DNA from: Cornus controversa
Taxonomy: Eukaryota > Streptophyta > Magnoliopsida > Cornales > Cornaceae
DNA: 64,000 nt
Direction: 5' to 3'
Assembly: GCA_026545225.1 (NCBI GenBank)
Contig: CM048849.1
Coordinates: 53,576,836 to 53,640,835, forward strand
The first letter of the stretch is position 1. Every line of letters begins with the position of its first letter. Position numbers and translations under genes: made by a program. The notes below the pieces were generated by a model, which had not been told where the DNA came from, made no database searches, and saw nothing but the letters and a program-made list of their open reading frames with translations. Below are positions 9,793 to 61,000 of the stretch, in pieces.

Positions 9793-10887
9793 CAAAAATT
9801 ACTCATATTATTCACCCGTGTCATGCTTATTACACTTACTCTTTTCTACTCTGACATATTACACTTATTTCCTCTCACTATCATATTTTAGCGGTTGTAA
9901 ACGAAAAATATAAAATTACTAATATGTCATTTACACTTACCTTCCCTCTATAATGACTTATTACACTCAATACTCCTGTATTTTATAATATTACACTTAC
10001 TCCTCTCTAATTTAGATGTTTGTAACAAATACTCCATTATCATTAATAACACTAATTGTCAGTGATGGTCAATGATAGTGTAGCCAAATTTAAAGATTTG
10101 TATGACAAAAATACTCTTCAAATATTTGTAGGAAAGCTTTTGTTCTATGTTACTTGTGCAAAAAGACAAATCTAACCCCAACTAAAGAAAATACAAAAAT
10201 TATTTTCTTTTACATATTTACCTTTCATCTTCTCTTTCTCTCTCTAAATCTATTGTCAATTTTATATCTATATGCACATCAATATATCCTTTAGTTTTAG
10301 TCCTTGTTCGCTTTCTATTATATTGATTGTCGACTCAGATAATGGCATCATAATGATGAATAATGAAAACTAATAAACTTTGGAGTTTATATTTATTCTA
10401 GGTGTTTAACATATACTGCAAACAAAATGTAATGAGTTTTAATTATTTGAAACGTTTCAACCTTTATGATTTATAAAAATATGTGTGAGGGTACGTATAA
10501 TGTAATTGTGACAAAATAATTTTTAGTTAAAATTATTTACACAATAATAAGGGCACAATTATAATTTCACATTTTTGTCATAAAAATCTTCAAATTTGGT
10601 CATACAAGCATTGGCTATATCTGACAATTAATATTGTTGACGATAATGAGGTATTTACTACAAACATCCAAATTAGAGGGGGTAAGTGTAATATTCCAAA
10701 ATACAAGGATGGTGAGTGTACAATATATAGGGGAGGTACGTGTAAATGGCATAAGAGTAATTTTACATTTTTCGTTAACAACTGTTAAAGTATGTTAGTG
10801 AGAGGGGAGTAAGTGTAATATGTCAAATTAGATAAGAAGTAACCGTAATAAAGTCAATCTAGAGGAGAGGTAAGTGTAATTTGCCCT
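9793..10887. mobile_element. long-arm foldback (TIR) element of about 1.1 kb
   Basis: The stretch 9793 to about 10130 reappears in reverse complement at about 10560-10887. Shared words include ATATTACACTTA, TTTACAC, TTGGATGTTTGTA/TTAGATGTTTGTA, ATTAATTGTCAG/ACTAATTGTCAG and GACAAAAAT. Arms of about 330 bases enclose a spacer of about 430 bases. Flanks ATATATAAA (9784-9792) and ATATATTAT (10888-10896) could be a decayed 9-bp duplication, which would suggest a Mutator-like origin. There is no transposase. Confidence 0.75.
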
Positions 10888-29696: not shown

Positions 29697-30030
29697 ACTA
29701 ACAAAGGTCTGTTGGTGGTGGAAGAAGGTGACAATGTGGAGGTGGTGGCGGCGGAGAAAGGTGGCGATATGGTAGGGGTGGTGGAGGAAGGTAGCGATGC
29801 GATGTGACGATGATAGTGGTGGTGGAGGAAGGTAATGATGCGGAGGTGGTGTGGTAAGGGTGGTGGTGGAGTAAGGTGATGATGTGTAGGTGGTGGCGAT
29901 GCGATGTGGCACTGGTGGTGGAGGAATGTGGTAATGCGATGTGGCGGTGGTAGTGGAGGAAGGTGACGATGTAGAGGTCGTGGCGATGCAATGTGGTGGT
30001 GGTGGTGGAGGAAGGTGGCGATTTGAAACG
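29697..30030. repeat. GGT/GAA-rich minisatellite
   Basis: The word GGTGGTGGAGGAAGGT recurs with GATG/GATGCGATGTGG spacers at about 40-50-base intervals (near 29780, 29821, 29912, 29951 and 30003). Strand-biased purine/G content leaves long frames open on both strands (His/Ser/Thr/Pro-rich on minus). I treat those frames as repeat artefacts. Confidence 0.85.
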
Positions 30031-30162
30031 AAGTCGGGGCGAGTTCGGGGTATTTCGATTTACATATTTTTTAAGAAATACAATACAAGCTTGAACGAAT
30101 TTATGGTAATATATTTAAAAAAATCAAATAAAGAAAAATACTTAAAAATGATAATAATAAAA

Positions 30163-31093
30163 GGGAAGAGATATTCGTACTCTATTTTTCTACGTTTACA
30201 CTCCACTTCTCTTTTACTTTTAAATGAAATGACAAGAAGATCTCTAAATTCATTAATTTATTATCTCTTATTTTATAATATCATAATTATCATTTATACT
30301 ATAAACTTCAACATTTTTTACCTTCTTTATGGATAATTTTTTTCTTAGGTCATTATTTTTTTAGATATATATATATATCTTGTCAAAGGAGAAATTATTA
30401 ACAGATAACTTTTTTGTTAGGTCTTGTCAAAAGACATAATTTATTCTAACAAAGATAACTTTTTTTTTGGGTACCATAAAAAAAATACTTTATTCGATAT
30501 AAATAACTTTTTTTTGGGTATTTGGTCCTGTCAAAAGAGAAAATTTATTTAACATAGATAATTTTTTTTGGACCCATCCCTTTTTTTTTTTTTTTTTTGC
30601 GTACCATACTTTTTTTTCCGGTCCTGTCAAAAGAGATAATTTATTCAATAGAGATAACATTTTTTTAGGGTTTTTTTTTTTGCATAGTATATATATATAT
30701 ATATATTGTTCATGTCAAAAGAGATGATTTATTCAATAGAGAGAACTTTTTTCTGGGTCTTTTTTTTTTCAATTCATGTAAAAAAAAAGATAATTCTTTC
30801 AACAAGGATAACTTTTATTTTTTTGGTCCTTTCATAAGAAATAATTTATTCAACTTGGATAACTTTTTTTTTGGTCCCGTAAAAAATATAACTTTTTTGG
30901 AATTTTTTTTTTTACCTTATTAAAAGAGACTGAAAATATTAAAGATGGGAGATAGAGAGGAAGATATCTCAAAGGGTAGTTGTGTAATTTGAAAATTTAT
31001 AATCATTTCAGTTATAAAGTTAAGGTTAGAAATGTCATTTCTTTTAACCTGGAAGTGCGAACGTAGAAAATAGAGGTGCAAATATCGCCTCCC
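30163..31093. mobile_element. TIR element, array-filled family, copy A, 931 bp
   Basis: The left end is GGGAAGAGATATTCGTACTC and the right end reverse-complemented is GGGAGGCGATATTTGCACCT. The arms extend about 45 bases and share TTTTCTACGTT. TAATAAAA flanks both ends (30155-30162 and 31094-31101). The interior from about 30350 to 30920 is a degenerate tandem array: GTCAAAAGA(G)ATAATTTATT, then a short spacer, GATAAC, a T-run and GG-T, repeated about ten times at roughly 50-70-base intervals. It is homologous end to end to copy B at 38763-39683. No open frame of note, so it is non-autonomous; a Mutator-like assignment rests mainly on copy B's 9-bp duplication. Confidence 0.85.
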
Positions 31094-31101
31094 TAATAAA
31101 A

Positions 31102-35194: not shown

Positions 35195-36305
35195 CACTAT
35201 TTTTGTCAAATCTTTCTAGGTCTTGATCAATATTTATGGGTTTTCTTTCATTTGGTTCCATAAGGCATCGATTGAGAACAAAATATTGAGCCAAAACTGT
35301 GTCCACCCGTGTAACCCGTTTAATAAATATGTTCTATAATGATACGACTTGTTGAATAATATTTTTAATCCATTTAACTTATATTGAGTTTCTCCACCCC
35401 TAAAAGTCTCTTTATGGGAGCTCCTTCATACAAGTTTGCGGCTAGGAGTCCCTCTAGTCCAATCAATAATCAATCTGAAGATTATATAAAAAATAAAGTA
35501 CATACCAATACATAAATTCTAAAATCAAACTATATAATAACTTTTGTATTGATATATAAACTCAAAAACATACCTTCAACAATTGAGAAGACACTATATA
35601 ATAAACAAATAAATTACAAATCATTGCAATATATATAACTATGTATATATAAGTTGTATAAAATCATAATATATGAATAACTCATGTCGTAATCACATCG
35701 TGTTATTAGTTAAATAACTTAAACTCAAACACAATCTAAATTTTGTGTGTCATGTTCGTGTCGACCTATTTATTAAACGTGTCCAATTTCACCGTCTTAA
35801 GATTCATTCCACCACCAACAACTACACGAGAACCAAGTTTTCTAATCTATGTTGGGTCTTCTTTAATCTGAAGGAAGATCCATGGACTCCGATTTCGAGG
35901 GTTCAATCCTGTTGCGGTTATGCCAATGCCTATGCAAACACCGTCAATCAATGGTTGCGTATTCGAATAGGTCGTTGAAGGACCGCCATAGTAAGGTGGA
36001 AGGACGTGTCGGGAGGGTCCACATGCTGGCGACGTGTGTTCTCTCTTAACTTTGTTGACGGGGTGTGAGTTAGAATTTTGTCAAAATCAATTTTGGGATT
36101 GTATTTCGCCCCAGACTAAATTTGGGATTTTTTGGAATTTAACCATTCATCGTTGTTTGTATATACGTTTGTGTGTGTATATATATATAATATAATATGA
36201 AGAATAGGAGGAGAGAAATTGGTTCTTGCACTGTGATTGGGATGTGCGAGAGAGAGAGAACTGTGCGTATATATAATATAATATATACACGCATATAAGA
36301 AAAGT
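34886..36305. other. AT-rich intergenic DNA
   Basis: Contains a (TA)n run at about 35146-35191. At about 35048-35115 there is a segment (TAGGAGATAA, GTTATTAGTG, TTCTCCATACACGGA) related to the loop of the hairpin at 53642-53785. About 35745-35980 is less AT-rich with a short frame of unknown meaning. No gene supported. Confidence 0.4.
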
Positions 36306-36970
36306 AGTGAAATGTTACTGCACGTTTATATGTTTGAAGGCATGGGAGTAGCACGTTAATATGGTTGCCTATTTCTTAGAACTCAATTAAGTTCACTTTC
36401 ACTTGGGTTTGTGCATACACTGTAATAATATAATAGGAATCATTATCTGTAGATAAGACACTGAACTGTTGACTTTTGGTTTTGATATGAACTGATTACG
36501 AATATGGCTTGATTAGAATTTCCATAACATCAATTATTCACCCTGGAAGTTTAAAAAATGCAAAGCTTTACGATTACCACAAACTGACAATACCGAATTA
36601 TGCAATTCTTTTCTTGGTGAGTGTCAGTGAGTAAGATTTTCGTTACCGTATTGTATTCGATCAAATCGAATAATCATTTTACTTCTGTTGTATTCAATTT
36701 CAATCTGCATAATCATTTTGCTTTCAAAGAGTAGCGTATTTAACCTCCAGATTGATTAGGAGTCTGAATGTTTGTGTGCATGCATACCATATATACACAG
36801 ATATATAGTAACAGCTACAATTATTTGAGGCAATTGAAATTTAAGCATTTTTAACTAGGAAATCTCAACTCAACCTATTATGTGAGATGAGACTCAAGCC
36901 CTATGCGGTGCATTGGTCAGCAGTATTAACTTGTTCAGTTTTGGAGGAATTTCCATAACATCAAATTTTC
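36306..36970. repeat. duplicated block II, left copy
   Basis: Colinear with 48907-49850 in the TPK intron. Shared words in order: GAAATGTTACTGCACGTTTA, ATATGGTTGCCTATTTCTTA, GACACTGAACTG, ATATGGCTTGATTAGAATTT, TATTCACCCTGGAAG, ACTGACAATA, CTGCATAATCATTTTGCTTT, CTCCAGATTGATTAGGAGTC and GCGGTGCATTGGTCAGCA. This copy has several deletions relative to the other, and ends at a GTTCAGTTTTGG word that in the partner lies inside an F-box gene 3' exon. Confidence 0.9.
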
Positions 36971-38345: not shown

Positions 38346-38355
38346 ATCTAAAGTA

Positions 38356-40243
38356 CAATAGTGATCTCTTGTTCACCGGTGAGCAAGAGAGTTTATTCAC
38401 ACATTTTATAGTATCTGTTAGATTAAATCTAACGGTCACATTCGAAACCCACCTTACTCCTTCCAAAAACTATAAAACCACTGTCTCTAATTTAATTTTC
38501 CAAAATTAATTGTTACCATTATTAAACAAAGGTAATTATCACAAAAATTATTCAAACCTTTTACTATATTATTGGAAGAACAGTGAAAAAAAAAACAGTG
38601 ATTTCCTATGTACTCTTGAGATGTGTAAACAAATATATCTCACCTCTACTGTTTAGCATATATTTTAGTATATATTCAATTAAATAGTACAGATAATTCT
38701 TAAATTTGCCTCGTAGATTATTTGTTTCACTACTAAATTCGTTGAAAAATTAAAAAATTGTAGGGAGACGATATTCGCACTTCCCTTTTCTACAATTGCA
38801 GTCCACTTACCTTTTTTTTATAAAGAAAATGACAAGAAGGTCCATAAACTAATTAATACATTATCATTTATTTTATAATACCACAACTACCTTTTATGCG
38901 ATAAAATTAAACTCTTTTTTACCTTCTTTAGTTTCTTTATTATGTTTTTTTTTTGGTCTTATCAAAAGAGATAATTTTTTTTACCTTTTTTACTTTCTTT
39001 ACTACTTTTTTTTTTTTAATCTTGTCAAAAGAGATAACTTGTTCATAGTTTTTTTTTGTCTTCTCAAAATGGATAATTTTTTCAACAAATTTTTTTTTTT
39101 GGTTTCTTCCAATAGAGATAATTTCTTTTTTTGAACCTATCAAAAGATATAATTTATTCAATAATGATAAATTTTGTTTTTTGGGTACTCTCAATATAGA
39201 TAGTTTATTCAATAAGAATAAAGTTTTTTATATACTTTTTTTTGGGGTCGTGTCAAGAGAAAATTTATTTAACATGGATAACTATTTTTTTGGGTACTTT
39301 TTAATTTTTAATTCCTACCAAAAGAAAATTTTATTTAACAGAGATATTTTTTTATCTCACAACAAAAGATATAATTTCTTCAACTGATATATATCTATAT
39401 ATATTTTGGTTTGTCAAAAGAAATAATTTATTAACATAGATAACGTTTTTGGGTCTCATAAAAAGAGAATTTTTTTTTGAATTATTATTTTTCGAGTCTT
39501 TTTTTTGATCCGATCAAAAGAGACCAAAAATATTAAAGATAAGAGACAAAGAGGATGTTTGAAAGGGTAGTTTAGTATTTTGAAAAAAGTTAATCATTCA
39601 CATGTGAAGTAAAGGTTAGAAGTGACATTTCTCCTACGATGAGAGTGCAAACGTAGAAAATGGGAGTGCGAATATCGCCTCCCAAAATTGTAATGTGAAT
39701 ATAATTTAAATTCTAAACTTTTTACTTTTTTTCTATTTTTTTTTTATCAAGATCTTCAGAATTACATATGTGAATTTTATTCATCTAAATTTACTATCAG
39801 TCATGGATGCTTTCTTTTTTATTTATTTAGATCTTTATTATTATTAGAGTTGATACTAATATCTATCATCTTTGTTAATCTTAGAGTTAAGACACTAAAA
39901 TGGATCAATCCAAAAAGGAGGAAAAAAAACTTTTAATAGTTTTCTAATGAAGGATTTATATATTTTAGAATATTTTAAATACATTTGTTTGAGGATTCCC
40001 ATTCCTTAGTGGTTTAAACATATTTTAGACATTTTAAGTACATTTTGAATGTATTTGTGGTAATTACATTTGTTTAACAATAGTAAGCATTAATTTTGAA
40101 AAATTAAATTAGAGAGAATGGTTTTGTGATTTTTGGAAAAAGAAAGGTAGATTTCAATCGTAATCGTTAGATTTAATCTAACGACTACCATAAAAGGCGT
40201 GGATAAAATCTCTTACTCACCGGTGAGCAAGAGATCACTACTC
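38356..40243. mobile_element. long-TIR element X, 1888 bp, interrupted by copy B
   Basis: The 10-bp duplication ATCTAAAGTA flanks it at 38346-38355 and 40244-40253. The ends are CAATAGTGATCTCTTGTTCA and, reverse-complemented, GAGTAGTGATCTCTTGCTCA, each followed by CCGGTGAG. The inverted arms run about 230 bases, through GTTAGATTAAATCTAACG and CTCTAATTTAATTTT to AAACAAA.GTAATTA. Removing the inserted copy B (38763-39683 plus one 9-bp duplication) leaves an original element of about 958 bp. No coding capacity. The duplication length fits a Mutator-like element. Confidence 0.85.
38763..39683. mobile_element. TIR element, array-filled family, copy B, 921 bp
   Basis: A perfect 9-bp duplication AAAATTGTA lies at 38754-38762 and 39684-39692. 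The ends are GGGAGACGATATTCGCACTT and, reverse-complemented, GGGAGGCGATATTCGCACTC. The interior is a degenerate array of GTCAAAAGAGATAATTT..TTCAA and T-runs, as in copy A, flanked by the same unique segments (ATGACAAGAAG left; AATATTAAAGAT and AAAGGGTAGTT right). It is inserted in element X. The end structure and 9-bp duplication fit a non-autonomous Mutator-like element. Confidence 0.88.
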
Positions 40244-40253
40244 ATCTAAAGTA

Positions 40254-41232
40254 AGTACTATAACGATATAAACACACACATGCACACTTTATAATCAGTT
40301 GATGTATTTTTATTATTTAATCCTACGACTATTTGGTTAAAACCATTGTTTTAGGAAACTATTACTATTTCAATTATAGTTAATTAGTCGTGAGGTGAAA
40401 AGACTATAATGGACTTTTCTTAAAAGGGAAAAAATCACTTTCTTTAATATTCTTTCAATATTTGGTATCTACATTCTCTCTCTCCAATTGACCTAGAAAA
40501 AAAAAAAAGCAAAGTGGTTTACAGTAAAATAGTGTTGTTCAACTTCATAAAGATTATAATGTGATAATGGTCTTGAAAAATCTCATGACAATAATAAAAA
40601 TAAAAATTAAAACCAAACTAAATTTTTTTTTTATATAAAGTTCAATATTGGTATGCACATTCTCTCTCTATAGGAAGATTAGGCGCCAAAATTGAGTCAA
40701 TAGATATGTGGAGAAGCAACGGTGTTTGGATCTCGATCGTATACGGTTGTATCCTCTGCTCAGCCTTGTATGGTGCCTTTGCCCAAGATCCCCAACTCGA
40801 ATTTTGTAGAGAGAGAGAGAACGTATAAACCAATATTGAACTTTTTATAAAAAAAAATTAAAATTTTAGTTTGGTTTTAATTTTAATTTTTATTGTTGTT
40901 ATGAGATTTTTCAAGACCATTATTACATTAGAATATGTTAATTTTTATGAAGTTGAACAACACTTTTTCACTGTAAACCACTTTTTTTTTTTTTTCTGGA
41001 TCAATTGGAGAGAGATAACGTACATTCCATATATTGAAAGAAAGTGATTTTTTCCTTTTAAAAAAAGTCCATTATAGTCATTTTACCTCACGACTAATTA
41101 ACTATAATTGAAATAGTAATAGTTTCTTAAAACAATGGTTTTAACCAAATAGCTGTAGGATTAAATCCGAAGGCTAGAGTTAAAAGTGTGTAAACTAATA
41201 CTTACTCACCGGTGAGCAGTTAAACATTATTG
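40254..41232. mobile_element. foldback element Y with arms of about 400 bp
   Basis: The interval 40254 to about 40665 reappears reverse-complemented at about 40810-41215. Shared words include CTATTTGGTTAAAACCATTG, GTTAATTAGTCGTGAGGT, CCAATTGA, AAGTGGTTTACAGT, GTTGTTCAACTTCATAAA, AAAACCAAACTAAA and AAGTTCAATATTGGT. The unique loop is only about 140 bases (40670-40805). The right end reverse-complemented, CAATAATGTTTAACTGCTCA then CCGGTGAG, matches the terminus of element X, so X and Y belong to one family. The left end abuts X and is not separately resolved. Confidence 0.8.
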
Positions 41233-41519
41233 TGTATATATAAATATACACTTTAGAAATATGGAATATGAGTTAATTTATAGTAATTGATTATATAAAA
41301 AGAGTTACTGGTGGACATCTTCCTGGTTCCACTTAATCTTTATTATAACTAGTTTGGCAATATTGAGCATAACCTTCCTAGTTACACTTAAATCTTTATT
41401 AAAGCTTTTGATACCATCATCATAAACAGAGTTGCAAAAGTATCCCTTATGATTTTAGCAATATTTTCAAAACTCAAGCTCTCCCTCAACTCCTAAAATG
41501 TTAATAACCACCTGCCTAA

Positions 41520-42404
41520 TGAGGGTGTATTCAATTAAGATTTTAAAAGTCTCGATGTATTCAATCTAGACTTTTAAAGAGTGCATGTAAATCAAGCTAT
41601 ATTCAATTGGAATTTTTAAATACCGAAGCCCATTACAAATCCAACATTTCTCCCATAGATTTTGGTGGACTTTTTTTTTCTGCAGAATATGAACAAATTT
41701 TCTCCATCTCAAGGTACACTCCTTTTCTCTCTCTTGGTTTTTATTTTTCACTTTTCTCAGATTCTCTCTCTTTCTATTGGATTAGGAAAACTTGTAAAAC
41801 ACAAATTTTTAAACAAGTTGATCAATCTCTCACACTATGGGAGGGATTAATCCATCTACACTGTTTGTTAAAGATCAATCTTTTAAGCTACATGAATTGA
41901 TCATAAGTCCAATTAATAATCCAATATAACCTAGGTTTAAGGTTCTCCAATTATCTATCTAATGATTTAACCTAGAGCCTATAAGTAAAGTCTGTACGTT
42001 TTTCTTTTCTTTTCATAATGTGTGTTGAAATCCGAAAAATGGTTGATATGCAATTTGTGTTCATCAAGTTACTTTATTATCCCATCTCTTTTCTGGGATA
42101 TTTGCATTACACAATAAGTTTTAGACAATATATCATATGATACATTATCCATTTTGCATAATAACTACTCCTTGAGCCATTTGTTTACTTGTACGAAAAA
42201 ATAGAATTCAAAGATACAAATAAATAAAATAGGTTGAAGAAATCAATACAAGTCTATAAAAATTTATCAAAGTCTCTAATAGAAGTCTATACAAATCAAT
42301 GAAGGTCTATAGTAGAAGTCTATTAAAATCCATGAATTCAATAAATCTATCACTTAAAAAATATGTTTCAAAATAATTTAAAATCCTAATTGACTATGCC
42401 CTCC
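41520..42404. mobile_element. Harbinger-type non-autonomous element, copy 1, 885 bp
   Basis: The left end is TGAGGGTGTATTCAATTAAG and the right end reverse-complemented is GGAGGGCATAGTCAATTAGG. TAA flanks both ends (41517-41519 and 42405-42407). It is a relative, in the opposite orientation, of copy 2 at 57271-58254, sharing CCATAGATTTTGGTGGACTT, TTTCTATTGGATTAGGAAAA and ACTGTTTGTT-type segments. Frames inside both copies give similar peptides ([10 protein letters not shown]) but have no known domain, and I treat them as non-genic. Confidence 0.8.
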
Positions 42405-42785
42405 TAAAATGTTTAAGAATTGAACAACATTGGTATTATATTTAAAGGTTCCTGCTGAAGAAACTATCGTCATTAAAGTTGAAAATGCTTGGTTGTATAT
42501 TTCATTCGTCACAAAAACATCATTTAGCCACGAACTTAGGTTTTGTCACAAAAAAATTTTGTGGACGCTTTCTTTCCCTTCCACAGGGACGGACCCACAT
42601 TGGGGTCAGTAGGAGCATCCGCCCCCAATCAATTTTTTTTTAATAGTATTATATACTTATACTTTTAGGACTAATTTGATATACAGGAATGGAGGTGGAA
42701 TGGAATGAATGGAATGGTCATTCCACCTCTGATTCTCTTTCTCTCGTTTGTTGTGCTACATTAAAAATGAAATGGTCATTCCTCC

Positions 42786-47718: not shown

Positions 47719-50700
47719 ATGGAGAAAGAGCCACTTCTTCCATATGTCGTCAGCCCCAGAAGGCCACACCCATCACCACCACCACCACCACCGCTACTCT
47801 GTCCCCTCCCAGAGAACGATGAAATCTCTATTCCTCTCCCTCTAACCCCATCAGAACTCAAAGACCGCCTAATCTTTGGACCCTCCTCCTCATCCCCCAA
47901 AGACCCCCCATCTCCAATTGTTGATTCCCTGCTAACCTCAACCCTGAACTCCCCCAAATCTTCCACCTCTTCTTCAAATCCCACAAACACTAACCCTGAC
48001 CCACAAAATCAACAGTCTTGGTTGATTGATCCCTTTTATTCATGGACCAAAAGCAACCTCCACAGGTCGAGAACCGCCCCGGCTATGGCGGCAATCAACG
48101 ATGTCATCCACTCCTCGGTGCCAAAACCGCCTCAATTCACCTCTTCATCAATCGTTCGTCAGGCTTTTGTGCTTTTGGTAATTTATTTGACTCTTGGCGT
48201 GATTATCTATTGGTTTAATCAGGATGATTTTAACGCAACTGACACACACCCGGTTGTTGATGCTTTGTATTTTTGCATTGTGACAATGTGTACAATTGGG
48301 TATGGTGATATTACTCCAAATAGCACTGCCACACAGTTGTTTTCAATAATGTTTGTGTTGGTGGGGTTTGGTTTTGTTGATATTTTGCTTACTGGGATGG
48401 TTAGTTACGTGCTTGATTTGCAAGAGAGTTATCTTTTGAGGACTGTTAAAGCTGGGGGAGACCATAATATGCCGAGGTCATATATAATTGATGTGAAAAA
48501 GGGGAGGATGAGGATTCGGATGAAGGTGGCCTTGGCATTGGGAGTTGTGGTTCTTTGTATTGGAGTTGGAACGGCTGTTATGCATTTTGTTGAGAGGCTT
48601 GGATGGTTGGATTCATTTTATCTTTCGGTTATGTCGGTCACGACTGTTGGATATGGTGACAGGGCATTTAAGTCCTTGCCTGGTCGGATTTTTGCATCTA
48701 TTTGGTTGCTTGTGTCGACCCTTGCTGTTGCTCGGGCCTTTCTTTACTTGGCTGAGGCAAGAGTGGATAAACGGCATAGGATGATGGCAAAATGGGTGCT
48801 TGGTCAGGATATGACTGTTTCCCAGTTTCTTGCAGCTGACATTGACAACAATGGTTTTGTGAGGTAAAGACATCCCTTTTTTTGTTATTGTTATTTTAGT
48901 AAGTTGTGAAATGTTACTGCACGTTTATATGCTTGAAGGCATCGGAGTGGCACATTAATATGGTTGCCTATTTCTTAGAACTCAGTTAAGTTCACTTATG
49001 ATTTTGAAATTGCTTTGCAACAGTCCACCAAACCCAAGTTTGATGGTAGGTAAACTTATATTTCATTTTCAAAATTTTTAATGCGCATACACTGTTAGAA
49101 TATAATAGGGAATCATCATCTGTAGACAAGACACTGAACTGCTGAGATACTTATATCTTTATAAAGGAAAATAGGTTGTGGCCTGGGTTGGAATATGAGT
49201 GGGCTTTTGCCACTTTTGCTTTTGATATTTGGATTACTGTCAACCACATTGTTGCTTGCTGTTAGAAGTTCCTTTCTGTTGAGAAAGCTTACAGAATATG
49301 GCTTGATTAGAATTTCCATAACATTAATTATTCACCCTGGAAGTTTAAGAAGTGCAAAGCTGGTGATATTTAGGTTTATAATTGCTCAATGATGTACTGT
49401 GAAATGTGAATGAGATTACGATTACCACACACTGACAATATCGAATTATGCAATTCTTTTCCTTTTTTTAAAATTTTGAAATCATCATCCAGAACCTTTT
49501 CATTTTTCTCTTTTTCTCTTGGTGAGTGAGTTAGATTTTCGTTTTCGTATTGTATTCAAATCAAATAATCATTTTCCTTCTGTTATATTCAATTTCAATC
49601 TGCATAATCATTTTGCTTTCAAAGAGTAGCGTAGACCACGTCTTTAACCTCCAGATTGATTAGGAGTCTGAATGTTTGTGTGCATGCATACTATATAGAC
49701 ATAGATAGTAACAGCTACAATTATTTGAGGCAATTTGAAAGTTTAGCCATTTTAACTAGGAAATCTCAACTCAACCTATTATGTGAGATGAGACTCAAGC
49801 TCTATGCGGTGCATTGGTCAGCATTATCAGAGAAGGACTTCATTTAACATTCCAAATGCTCTCTCCCCCGCCATTTCATATGGTGGTACTAAGTTCCTTG
49901 GGCGGCTTCCAGCTCTTTTGATCGATCATAAACAAGTTTTGTTCGACAGTATAACTTCTTCAGTTTTGGGAAACTCTTGACTAGGCCAACTGAATTTTCT
50001 TTGCGCAGCTTCACATTCATGTCCAGAATGACCAGATATTCAAGGTTATTCCAGATCGTTGCCATGGCTGTGTAAGATCCATATGCACGGTATTTTACCA
50101 AGTGTCACGGATGTGACCTCTTTCCAGTGACTAATTGCCAACAAAAAGCCCCTTCTGGTCAACCGCAATTTGTCTCCAAAAATGATTTTTTGGATATGAG
50201 GTGTTCTGCAACATATAAAAGAAAATGAAAATTGAAAGCTAGCTTGCCAATGGTTTGGCAATGAACCAAAAGAGTTCTTTGAGAAAATAAACCATAGAAA
50301 GTTTTTTTGCAATCTCAAATCAAATTTGGAAGATTTTCAAAGTAAGCATCCCTTATCTTGGACTATAAAAACAAGGTCATGTAATGGACATAGAGGGACT
50401 GTTGAAACTTTGATGAATCTATGGCCCTTCTGATGATACACTGAGTTTCCCAAGACAAGGAAAAACACGACAATCACACCACACAATTGTTGCTTTTCTT
50501 AATTTGAAGATTTTCAACTCACCATTCAATATCAAATTTTGGCAGGCCCTCAATCTGAAATCTGCTCAAGCCTTCTTCAATCTTAAAGGTTTGAAGAATT
50601 CTCACTACAACCGGTTCAACATCTAGCTTTTGTAACCCTTGTATTCAAGACAGACAAGGAACAACACAACAATCACATCTACTTACTTTTCCTCTCTCAA

Positions 50701-55089: not shown

Positions 55090-58000
55090 ATGGTGGTTAC
55101 CGGACCTATAACACCTGGACAGGTATGGTTTTATTCTCTGGCGATTTTCTGAATGCTGAAAGATAATTACTTTTTTGACCACTGATTTTTGTAACACGGC
55201 CGTATATCTTTGGGTGGTTTTTATTTTTTAATTATCGAATATGAAAGATCGGTTTCTTGTGAATTTCGCGAAATGTCACGAGCCCTTGATCTGAAGAGTG
55301 CTACACCCACTCATTTTGTTATTTTGATCAACAAGAACAGTAAATGTACTGGTAGATTTGCCATATTTCACATTCATACGCACACTTAAGCACAAGCAGT
55401 AGTACATATATGTTCTTCTGAAGCTATGTATTGGTTAACGTCTAAAACTTATAAATAGGACTTATTAAGAAATTCAGCTTCTTAGTTCAATTTCAATATT
55501 CTTGAGTAAGCGTGATCACAGTGCTAAATCAACTTGGAGATTATTTGAGTGGGTGAAGTGAGTTGACTGCTCTAGCTCCTATGAAGTTTTTCTATCTAAT
55601 AGTATTTCGGTGAACATATATGTTTATGCCCGTACCTACTAATTCAGATCCAATGGCAGTTTTGCAAGTTCTGTGTCATGTTTTTGTTTTTAAAGTTCAA
55701 ATTTTTGCTTGCAGATTTCCATTTATTGTCTGTTTCAAGTAAGTTTTCCTTGCATATCAAGTGAAGCCTTCTCTTTCTAATTGTCTCAGGTGTCTTTTTT
55801 GCTTGGGTTTGTCCCCATTTTCGTTGCATGGATATATTCTGAGTTGTTAGAATATAAGAAGCCTTCATCTCCATCTAAAGTGTAAGTTTCTCTCTTCTAC
55901 ACGGATAGATACGAATTTTCTTGGCAGTGTATATTTTTAATCTTTGGTTTTAACTATAAACTTCTCTCTCTCTCTCTCTCTACACGCACACATACATCTG
56001 TCTTTGTCTTTGTATCCCGTTCTCTCTCTGCCCCTCATCTTTTTTTCTGTTCTTATTTTCATTCATTGTAGTAAGAATTTCATTACCAAAAAAGAAGAAA
56101 GTTCCGGATATTTTTGCATCACACTAACTGCCTCACCTGCAGCATGTTAGTTGACTCACATTCATTTCGACATGCGTGATTTAATTATATATATGTGTGT
56201 GTGTGTGTGTGCGCGCGTGTGCGCTTCCTTCTTTTTGTTTTTATTAAATTTTAACTAGACAATTCTGTTACCAGACGAGGTATGATTGCAGGAGTAAGTA
56301 AAATAAAGCACTCTAGTTATGTCATCATGGGTCTAAAGATACGGAGAACTTTGAAGTTTGTCTAATGCACTGTGGTTAAGAAACTTCAATTGAGTTTCCA
56401 TCTTCTTTTTTTTCCCCTTCCAATAGAATGGAGAGAGAGACAGAGAGACAGAGAGTTTGGAGATATCAGCTATGCAAAATAAGTAAGAGGATTTGAAATA
56501 GAATGCAAGATTAACTTAGAGGGAGTAAGATTAAATAGTGGTGGATAAAATGCCCAGTACAACAAATGGCCCATCCAAATTGAAATAGTAATCAACACTG
56601 CAGAAATGGATGAGCACAAATTGCGTGGGTTTACTTGTAACAATTATTTAAAACTTGTTTAATTTGAAGATAAGATTACTTCGATATTTGAAACTGAAAT
56701 ATAGAAGAATACACCATTTCATAGTAGTGAAAGGTGTAATATGAATTACAACTTGTATTTTAGGCGAGAAAGATGGGAAAGCTCGCTTTCCATTAACGAA
56801 ATGAAATGGAATGTGTACTTGTGAAGGGTGTAATGTGAATCACAACTTGTGTAGTTTTCCACAAGTCAGTTTTAGAAGGTGCTGTGTTGAATGTGTGAAT
56901 CGTGTGTCCTAAGTAGATCCTCATGATTGTTTTTTTGCTTGGAAGACCCTCATATGATGTAAAGAGATATTTCAAAACATGAGGTGCATGTGTACAATAG
57001 GAGTGAAAGAGAGCCACAACTGTGTGAGAGGTTGTGCAGATAGTTCAAGATATACAGTATTTTATATAGTTTCTATACTAGAATTAGGCCATCATAAAAC
57101 AAGCAGAAGGGAGAAGAAAGAAGCTGAGAAAGCATACTCTGGTTCCCATCAACTGAGCTTTTGTAAGCTTTTCTATTCATCTTATGCTTTCTTTACATCT
57201 TTGATATCATTAGAATGTTATGATATTGTGCCAGTAAATTTGAAAATTGTTGCACAATATAGTATACTTAGGAGGGTGTAGTCAATTAGGATTTTCAAGG
57301 ATTTTGAAAGACATTTTTTAAGTGACAGATTTATGTGGATTCATGGATTTTTATAGACTTCTATTACAAACTTTCATTGATTTGTATAGACTTTTATTAG
57401 AGACTTTGATGGATTTTTATAGACTTGTATTGATTTCTTTAACATATTTTATTTATTTGTATCATTGAATTCTATTTTTGCATACAAGTAAACCAATAGC
57501 TCAAGAGGTAGATATAATACAAAATGGATAATCTATCATCTGATATATTGTCTAAAAATTATTGTGTAGTGCAAATATCCTAGGAAAGAGCAGAGATAAT
57601 AAAGTAACTCACTTGATGAACACAAATTGCATATCAACCCTTTCTCAGATTTCAATCACATTATGAAAAAAGAGAAAAAAAAACTACAAACTTTATTTAT
57701 AGGTTTTAGATTAAATCATTGGATAGATAATTAGAGAACCTTGAACCTAGGTTATATTGGATTATTAATTGGACTTCATGATCAATCCATGTGGTTTAAG
57801 GATTGATTCCTAATAAACAGTGTAGAGGGATTAATCATCCCATAATAGAAGAGATTGATCAACTTGCCTGGAAAATTGAGTTTTACAAGTTTTCCTAATC
57901 CAATAGAAAAAGAGAGAATCTGAGAAGAAAGAGAAAGAGAAAAAAAGAGTGTACCTTGAGATGGAGAAAGGCTGATCGTATTCTGCAGGAAAAAAAGTCC

Positions 58001-61000
58001 ACCAAAATCTATGGGGGAAAGGTTGAATTTGTTATGGGCTTCGGTATTTATAACTTCCACCCTCAAATCCACTAAAATCCACCACTTAATGAAATCCTTT
58101 AAAATTTATGACTTTTTTAATACACCTAGACTTTTGTAGACTTTTTTAAAATCCTAATTGAATACCGTCAGATTTGTATGGATTCTTTAAGAGTCTGAAT
58201 TGAATTCACCTAGAATTTTGAAGTCTTTTAAAATCCTAATTGAATACACCCTCCTTAAATTTGGTCTAAAGGATGATACTTTCTATTTAATTTTTTTTTA
58301 TTTCTGACTTGTAGTTTGTCATCTAATGTTCCATGCTAGCATTGGCGCCATGCACATTTCACCACTTAATTAATATATTTCTATTGCTTTTTTTTTTGGT
58401 GCCAAGGTTCAATCACTTGTATATATGCATGGATATTGAAATTAATATTTTAAAATTAGTTTAATCAATATAAATAAAATATATTACCATTTGTCGTTTG
58501 CACAATCATATTGGTCACTTTGTATTATTTGTGTACATTTGAGATTTGAAAGTCATCTTTTAATACAACACTGTAAGGAAATGATTAGAAAAAGTATGAT
58601 ATCCAGATGCTTAATCTTAATCTTCTGATACTGAATTTCTGACTCTCTGGGCAGCAGTCATTCAGACATTAATCTGGTTGAATTGGGAAATGAAACGGTC
58701 AAGGATGAGGATCGTGCTGTTTTGCTGGAGGGAGGCCTCACAAAATCGGCTTCTGCGAAGTTTTATACTTCATCCATCAAAGTGAACTTAATTAGGTGGC
58801 TTGCTGTTTGATATGCTTCAGTGAAGTTTCATGTTAGTTCTCTTTGTAGGAGTCCTTCTTACCTTCTGCACCTCTTTATTTTCTAGGTTTCTAACACTGG
58901 ATGACACTTTCTTGCTAGAAAATCGAGCAACTCTGAGAGCTATGTGAGTCCCTGTTGTTTTGTTGTCATGTCGATGATAACAAACACTTGACAGCTCTTC
59001 ATTCTTTCTTATATATAATATTATAATTTTATGTAGGTCTGAGTTTGGGGCAATTCTGGTATATTTCTTCATATGTGACCGAACAGATATATTGGCAGAA
59101 TCTACCAAGGTGCTTTTATTTTTCTGGGTTGCATTTTGAATTTTCATTCATGAGTTCATTTACATTTTGTTTTGAAACACTTTCAGGGTCTTTTTGGTAA
59201 GTTTTAATCTTGGCTAATATTGCATAATGATTATGTTTATAATGCTGAAGTTGATCTGTTAGAATCTGTTGCATTTCAATAATCATCCCTGCTACAGAGA
59301 TACACACGTATAAGCTTGGGGATATAATGCAAATTGAAAATTAGAGTTTGGATATGGTTAATCCCATGTAGCTAATATATCCTGCCTCTCTCTGTGTGTG
59401 GTCAAGAGATTAATTCCTTGGACTTGGACCAGGTTATCATAAATTGATGTTACTCTACCAAGTGTATAGACATTGATGTTCTTTCTATCTTCTTTTTTTC
59501 TTTAGTTTGGGGTGTTTTGGGGGGAAGGGAAGGTAGGGGCAGACTGAAAAGTTTTGACTTGCGAGGTCAAATTAGTAGTATGGAACTAAAATTTTAAAAA
59601 ATGATAAAGTGTATAATGTTTTATTTACATTAGATTTTTTTTTTATAAAGTGGGTCTAAGAAAATTATTATAAAGTAAAAGTACTCCAATTTTGCATCTT
59701 AAACGAAATGAGCAGACTGAAATTATCAGTATTCTACGAGATCCAACAATATTGTAGAAAGATTCATATATTTCTTTCTATAATACTATATTTATTATTG
59801 TTATTGTAGTACATAAATTTTTATTGTATAATAAAGATACAGATCAATTTACAATTTCATAAATCAACAAGTGCATAAAATGGGAAGAAGAATAAGGATA
59901 GGGGTCGTATTTGGAATTTTTTGATCTTTCCTAAAACGTGGACTTCCAAAAGTAAGACCTAAAAAGTAAGTGTAAGGCTTAAAGAGAGAAAGGAGTAGCT
60001 TTTAGCAATGATGAGAACACCAGAGAGTAGAGAACTTAGTGGAATTCTGAGCTGTCACATGAGGTCTTCAAGTGTAGGCTCTAGATGAGGCAGAGGGGCG
60101 AGACTTCAGTAATCTCCCTTTTCGTCTTAATTACATCTTCATTCTACTTTCTTCTTCTTCTTTTTTTGATTCCCTTAAATCGGCCTAATTACTCATTTTA
60201 TACTACCCTACCATCAAATAAAGATCATAAATTTGAAGGAATTATCTCTTGATCATTGATTGATCAGTTGCAAGATTCCGGGGGATATGCCCATGTTAGA
60301 GAGGGTCATGATGAATTATTTAGCTTAATCGGGTAGGAAAGGCCAGGCATTTAATGTGACTGTAAGTAAAAGGAATCTTCATTAAATGCGAGGGCTCGTC
60401 GGCTAGTTCCCATTCCTTCCTCTCAGGAGATCACTCCACTTCCTCTGTGACATGTCGAAGAGTACTCATCTCACTTGGGCCACGGTGGGGAGGCCTGGGT
60501 GTGGAAAGATGATGTGCTATATATGTGGTGTGCTCTCTCCAAATGCTATGAGATCTTTTGGGATAAAACCCAAGAACAAAACCGTGCGGGCTAGGTCCAA
60601 AGCGGACAACATCATAACATGTGGTGGAGCGGGTCGTTAAAAATGGTATCAAAGTTGGACCTAGCAAGAGATGGGGGGGCGTTGAACAAGCCCAAACAGG
60701 TCAGCGAGGGCGTTGAGTCCCTAGGGAGGGTGACTGTGGCATCCCACATCGCCTGGGTGTGGAAAGAGGATGTGCTATATATGTGGTGTGCTCTCTCCAA
60801 ATGGTATAAGGCATGTTGGGGTAAAACCCAAGAACAAAACCGTGTGGGCTTGGCCCAAAGCGGACAATATCATACCATGTGGTGGAGTGGGTCGTTACAA
60901 TAACAACCCATGCTTTCTATCTTTTTATGATTAATATGTTTTTAAAGGAACATTCCTAAGATTGGGAAGGGATGTTATATTTATGCTTTACAGTCGTGTT

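Follow-up and report, generated by a model that had tools for sequence, protein, structure and literature searches.

DNA transposons of the Mutator superfamily (MULEs) are reported to have target-site duplications (TSDs) of 8-11 bp and terminal inverted repeats (TIRs) of 14-500 bp (PMC6446971). In Arabidopsis, the Mutator-related elements VANDAL21 and VANDAL6 are described as having degenerate TIRs and as encoding both VANA and VANC; the short motifs bound by VANC21 and VANC6 are arranged as tandem repeats in the non-coding DNA of VANDALs, and binding of VANC to these repeats is reported to lead to loss of silencing marks (PMC5735166, PMC10398659). The tandem repeats of Galileo have been stated to hold extra transposase binding sites, and the same source deals with Tetris of Drosophila virilis, a foldback element that its authors suggest to be Mutator and for which the account gives TSDs of 8-10 bp, internal tandem repeats of ~220 bp situated inside the TIRs, and no coding copy found (PMC4079207). 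Arrays that travel along with short non-autonomous elements have been described for the Xenopus MITEs Xstir and miDNA4 and for the (GTCY)n MITEs of Lepidoptera, a minisatellite is reported inside a short non-autonomous MITE of Porphyromonas gingivalis (PMC4596501), and in frogs, moths, bivalves, ants and rye a connection has been drawn between MITE repeats and satellites or simple repeats (PMC9659126).

Two short elements, here called copies A and B, lie within a window of 64 kb (the whole stretch of DNA that was analysed; 33% G+C) which looks like plant nuclear DNA, judging from the genes in it; the family is known here from these two copies, both within this one window. They are like plant non-autonomous MULEs in having TSDs of 8-9 bp, TIRs in the MULE range and no transposase domain in the element, but differ in that the interior is mostly a tandem array and that no autonomous partner was seen in the window. 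With VANDAL21 and VANDAL6 they share tandem short-motif repeats in non-coding DNA of a (here most likely) Mutator-related element, whereas their TIRs are recognisable, they lack the motifs of VANC21 and VANC6, and no VANA or VANC gene was seen. Tetris is similar in its TSDs, in its lack of a described coding copy and in its internal tandem repeats; in A and B, in contrast, successive units start at intervals of 31-100 bp, in an array that the arms enclose. The MITEs of Xenopus, Lepidoptera and P. gingivalis are likewise short non-autonomous elements with an array, but their hosts and units differ, and the likeness is one of description, the superfamilies being either different or uncompared.

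The A/B family is therefore one more example of a documented class, that of transposons with internal tandem arrays. The view, put forward in a preliminary description of this DNA, that an array-bearing MITE-like element would be of an unusual kind is not supported, because accounts of MITEs, foldback elements and Mutator-type elements with internal tandem repeats have been published. There is reportedly also a paper on minisatellites and transposons in rice. For the ends or the unit of the A/B family no printed match was found in the open-access literature: of six fragments taken from the ends and unit, a text search found just one, of 11 bases, in four papers that were unrelated by title.

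Copies A and B, their ends and their insertion sites

We are fairly confident that A and B inserted long ago and belong to a single family of non-autonomous DNA transposons, for which the Mutator superfamily is the most likely home. When compared over their whole length the copies were found to be 64% identical (1065 columns, E=6e-54), and the coordinates first proposed for both proved to be exact; the accompanying remark that they keep a ‘nearly equal total length’ holds for the 931 bp of A and the 921 bp of B, as a comparison of n=2 copies only. Segments near both ends had been proposed to be common to the two copies and are so, the left ones being 69% identical (190 columns) and the right ones 78% (186 columns), values which indicate that the copies are old. 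In the layout that we propose for the element, inverted arms on the left and right enclose a T-rich tandem array of ~600 bp. The copies, their boundaries and the element that surrounds B are as follows.

30163..31093, + strand: copy A, non-autonomous TIR element, with inverted ends, a TSD and full-length similarity to B
30155..30162, + strand: left TSD of A, TAATAAAA, 8/8 bases equal to the right flank, low-complexity
31094..31101, + strand: right TSD of A, TAATAAAA, 8/8 bases equal to the left flank
30163..30205, + strand: left TIR of A, 36/45 aligned columns matching the right end
31050..31093, - strand: right TIR of A, pairing with the left end of A over 36/45 columns
38763..39683, + strand: copy B, non-autonomous TIR element, with inverted ends, a TSD and similarity to A
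38754..38762, + strand: left TSD of B, AAAATTGTA, 9/9 bases equal to the right flank
39684..39692, + strand: right TSD of B, AAAATTGTA, 9/9 bases equal to the left flank
38763..38803, + strand: left TIR of B, 35/41 aligned columns matching the right end
39643..39683, - strand: right TIR of B, pairing with the left end of B over 35/41 columns
38356..40243, no strand assigned: older TIR element, host of B, with 198-bp arms that are 82% identical and a TSD of its own

The ‘45-bp ends’ of the two copies are imperfect inverted repeats of about 41-45 bp. Their end-pair scores (39 in A and 52 in B) were set against those of 2000 random window segment pairs, taken at a spacing similar to that in A and B, of which the highest was 30 and 0/2000 scored as high. 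An artefact of AT-rich DNA was rejected, as the end scores exceed those of these 2000 pairs and the array exceeds Markov shuffles. The 18-base end originally quoted for the family, GGGAGGCGATATTCGCAC, is exact at the right end of B but not at the other three ends, with 1 mismatch at the left end of B, 1 at the right end of A and 3 at the left end of A. A profile built from the four ends matched only those four places with E<1 in the whole window. Inverted left-right similarity continues past the outer 45 bp, up to about position 170. This inner-arm similarity is not significant within one copy (A p 0.051, B p 0.117); the four left-right comparisons summed to a score of 190, which was reached by 5/1000 and 7/2000 shuffles, compared with a summed score of 117 in direct orientation, and the best single comparison scored 60 (reached by 25/2000 shuffles, and by 0/500 AT-rich window segments). 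A single-strand DNA fold of A pairs both arms, with a z of -3.1 against 20 shuffles for a fold in which the outer TIR is included. Together this suggests arms of ~165 bp extending as far as the array, the weakest among the structural claims.

TSD lengths of 2 to 12 were compared. Perfect TSDs, which are absent from the preliminary description, were found to be 8 bp long in A and 9 bp long in B, and their sequences are different, which indicates two separate insertions. Among random window pairs, chance agreement was ~1 in 10,000 for 8-mers and ~6 in 100,000 for 9-mers. Copy B is nested within the TIR element at 38356-40243, which measures 958 bp once B and one TSD are subtracted and has a perfect 10-bp TSD, ATCTAAAGTA, at 38346-38355 and 40244-40253; B therefore jumped into an older element. 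Taken with the inverted ends and the partly collinear array, the separate insertions support the original proposal of a TIR transposon family with an array inside both copies.

Several other repeats were observed in the window. A minisatellite of the GGTGGTGGAGGAAGG type is found at 29713-30025, a short distance to the left of copy A, and a tandem array at 61-1410 has a 359-bp unit present in 3.7 copies, with 21-bp sub-repeats. A near-palindromic element at 40315-41166 has arms of ~355 bp that are 85% identical around a spacer of ~140 bp, whilst an inverted repeat at 9827-10851 has arms of ~285 bp that are 80% identical, with ~460 bp between them. Four pieces, 89-95% identical and in conserved order, are shared by 36302-36926 and 48901-49827, suggesting from this similarity that these may be duplicated or transposed sequence.

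The collections that were searched for the family are bacterial, archaeal, viral and plasmid, so that a lack of matches there is of little weight for an element of plants. With a 24-position end pattern there were 0 matches in bacterial/archaeal genome contigs and 0 in viral contigs, a 22-base unit gave 0 in viral contigs, and copy A had no match among plasmids (BLAST, low-complexity filter on). A 15-base end pattern was found in 44 stretches of viral contigs; these were taken as chance, the best 10 of the 44 having E values of 0.006 to 0.15 against a profile of the four ends and 8/10 of them covering only ~20 positions around the pattern.

The tandem array and putative protein binding

The two arrays are located as follows.

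30381..30954, + strand: tandem array inside A, with 9 unit matches; profile matches lie here too
38962..39542, + strand: tandem array inside B, with 11 unit matches; profile matches lie here too

The unit is T-rich and ~34 bp long, and since it matches at 9 places in A and at 11 in B, the earlier wording that it is repeated ‘about ten times’ was fair; a match was defined by a score of at least 24, and the null, 50 Markov shuffles per copy, gave 0-2 matches each. The last unit match in each copy has a score of exactly 24, and a single reverse-strand match in the left arm of A (n=1, score 24) falls within the shuffle range. Tandem Repeats Finder detected arrays in both copies, with periods of 39-63 and 68-86% matches. 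The array was rightly called ‘degenerate’: its unit starts are spaced 31-100 bp apart, and the 20-mer quoted as the unit, GTCAAAAGAGATAATTTATT, occurs exactly 1x in A and 0x in B. Over positions 171-780, runs of at least 6 T number 16 in A and 15 in B, compared with 3 and 0, respectively, for runs of the base A. A unit profile was built from 17/20 units (all but unit B4 and the final unit of each copy) and gave 16 matches with E<0.05 in the window, all of them in A or B and on the + strand; outside A and B no profile match at E<0.05 was found within the 64-kb window, where the proposed seeding of satellites by such an array therefore finds no support. Outside the copies the profile scored best at 60250-60221 (- strand; E=0.08), ahead of the first unit of A itself (E=0.16).

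A binding role for these units is possible in view of the action of VANC on VANDAL repeats and of the repeat sites in Galileo. By this analogy, the array might be a multi-site binding platform of a VANDAL/VANC-like or Galileo-like kind, kept as an aid against silencing or for transposition, a reading that we consider unlikely even with these published precedents (PMC5735166, PMC10398659, PMC4079207, as far as their descriptions go). The unit matches at E<0.05 are all on one strand, and columns 1-22 of the unit agree 83% with the consensus compared with 66% for columns 24-35 (18 units), which would fit such a role; but an agreement of 83% is about what would be expected from decay alone, given the 69-78% identity of the end segments, and so constraint on the unit is not demonstrated. 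Several of the units are, moreover, badly degenerate, and neither of the published motifs, that of VANC21 or that of VANC6, is present on either strand of A or B. Slightly less probable again is the proposal, also drawn by analogy, that there are TIR-bearing non-VANDAL MULEs in which the body is mostly a one-strand array, offering ~10 putative sites for a trans-encoded DNA-binding protein; for the A/B family this protein would be an anti-silencing or a transposase-accessory one, and the arrangement would be convergent with VANC-target repeats, on gene-less elements.

Superfamily and coding content

A probable assignment of A and B to the Mutator superfamily comes from their TSDs of 8-9 bp and from a TIR length within the MULE ranges: the duplications agree at 8/8 bases in A and 9/9 in B, and the TIRs are recognisable over 41-45 bp, with weaker similarity to about position 170. 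Elements of the hAT superfamily have short ends and TSDs of 8 bp. The main alternative, that the element is a non-autonomous hAT with an internal array, is improbable: it would accommodate the perfect, low-complexity 8-bp TSD of A, but the perfect 9-bp TSD of B and the long inverted ends of both copies, at 41-45 bp with traces to about 170, speak against it.

There is no ORF of at least 150 aa inside A or B, and the two stop-to-stop frames that lie in or overlap the copies (112 aa inside B, and 133 aa across the left end of A) have no Pfam match; from this, A and B would have moved in trans. The window contains 21 stop-to-stop frames of at least 110 aa, of which 20 were scanned with Pfam (the frame at 29698-30114 was left out), and no transposase domain was found in these 20/21. 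Pfam matches in four window frames were to X8, to an F-box-like domain (sub-threshold), to an ion channel (two Ion_trans_2) and to a Cas1-type acyltransferase, and a scan of the window with Rfam at gathering scores gave 0 matches. In the mechanism that we propose for a MULE of this kind, a transposase encoded elsewhere would have recognised the ends and moved the element together with its array, and both copies would have decayed after insertion.

Origin of the array

The unit consensus of A (8 units) and that of B (10 units) differ in 3/38 letters. In a scan with 6-base steps, A 241-420 and B 354-535 were found to be the reciprocal best-scoring array block, and blastn aligned them at 76% over 181 columns. 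Across the full array, no significant agreement in unit order was found between the copies (p 0.10, or 0.60 with the last unit omitted). Since one stretch of the array is still collinear, the element probably already carried its array when A and B separated. The simplest reading is that an ancestor shared by A and B already had the array, that the array moved along with the element, and that slippage, unequal exchange or deletion has since rearranged it; it may have arisen in the ancestral element itself, its size then changing through replication slippage or unequal exchange. Separate growth of the array in each copy was rejected on the near-identical unit consensus and the collinear stretch. 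That the array is an independent minisatellite, lying in two insertions by chance or grown separately after each, is very improbable: unit order as a whole does differ between A and B, but the two consensus sequences are nearly the same, no other part of the window matches the unit at E<0.05 (best outside, E=0.08) and a stretch of ~180 bp is collinear.

Another short transposon family is represented in the window by 41517-42407 and an inverted copy at 57268-58257. Its ends are like GGAGGGTGTATTCAATTAGGATTTT, its members are 86% identical over 41608-42407 and 74% over the outer piece 41517-41620, and each carries an internal 33-bp tandem repeat of ~2.8 copies; the copy at 57268-58257 has TAA on both sides, which is Harbinger/Tourist-like. 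The presence of two unrelated array-bearing short elements in one window suggests that arrays within short elements are not rare in this genome.

The A/B family is genuine, and as plant transposons go it is fairly ordinary. Should its units bind a protein, the sequence-specific anti-silencing of the VANC type would be extended beyond the VANDALs of Arabidopsis; and were the family abundant in its genome, it would offer a clear example of a transposon taking a tandem array from site to site.
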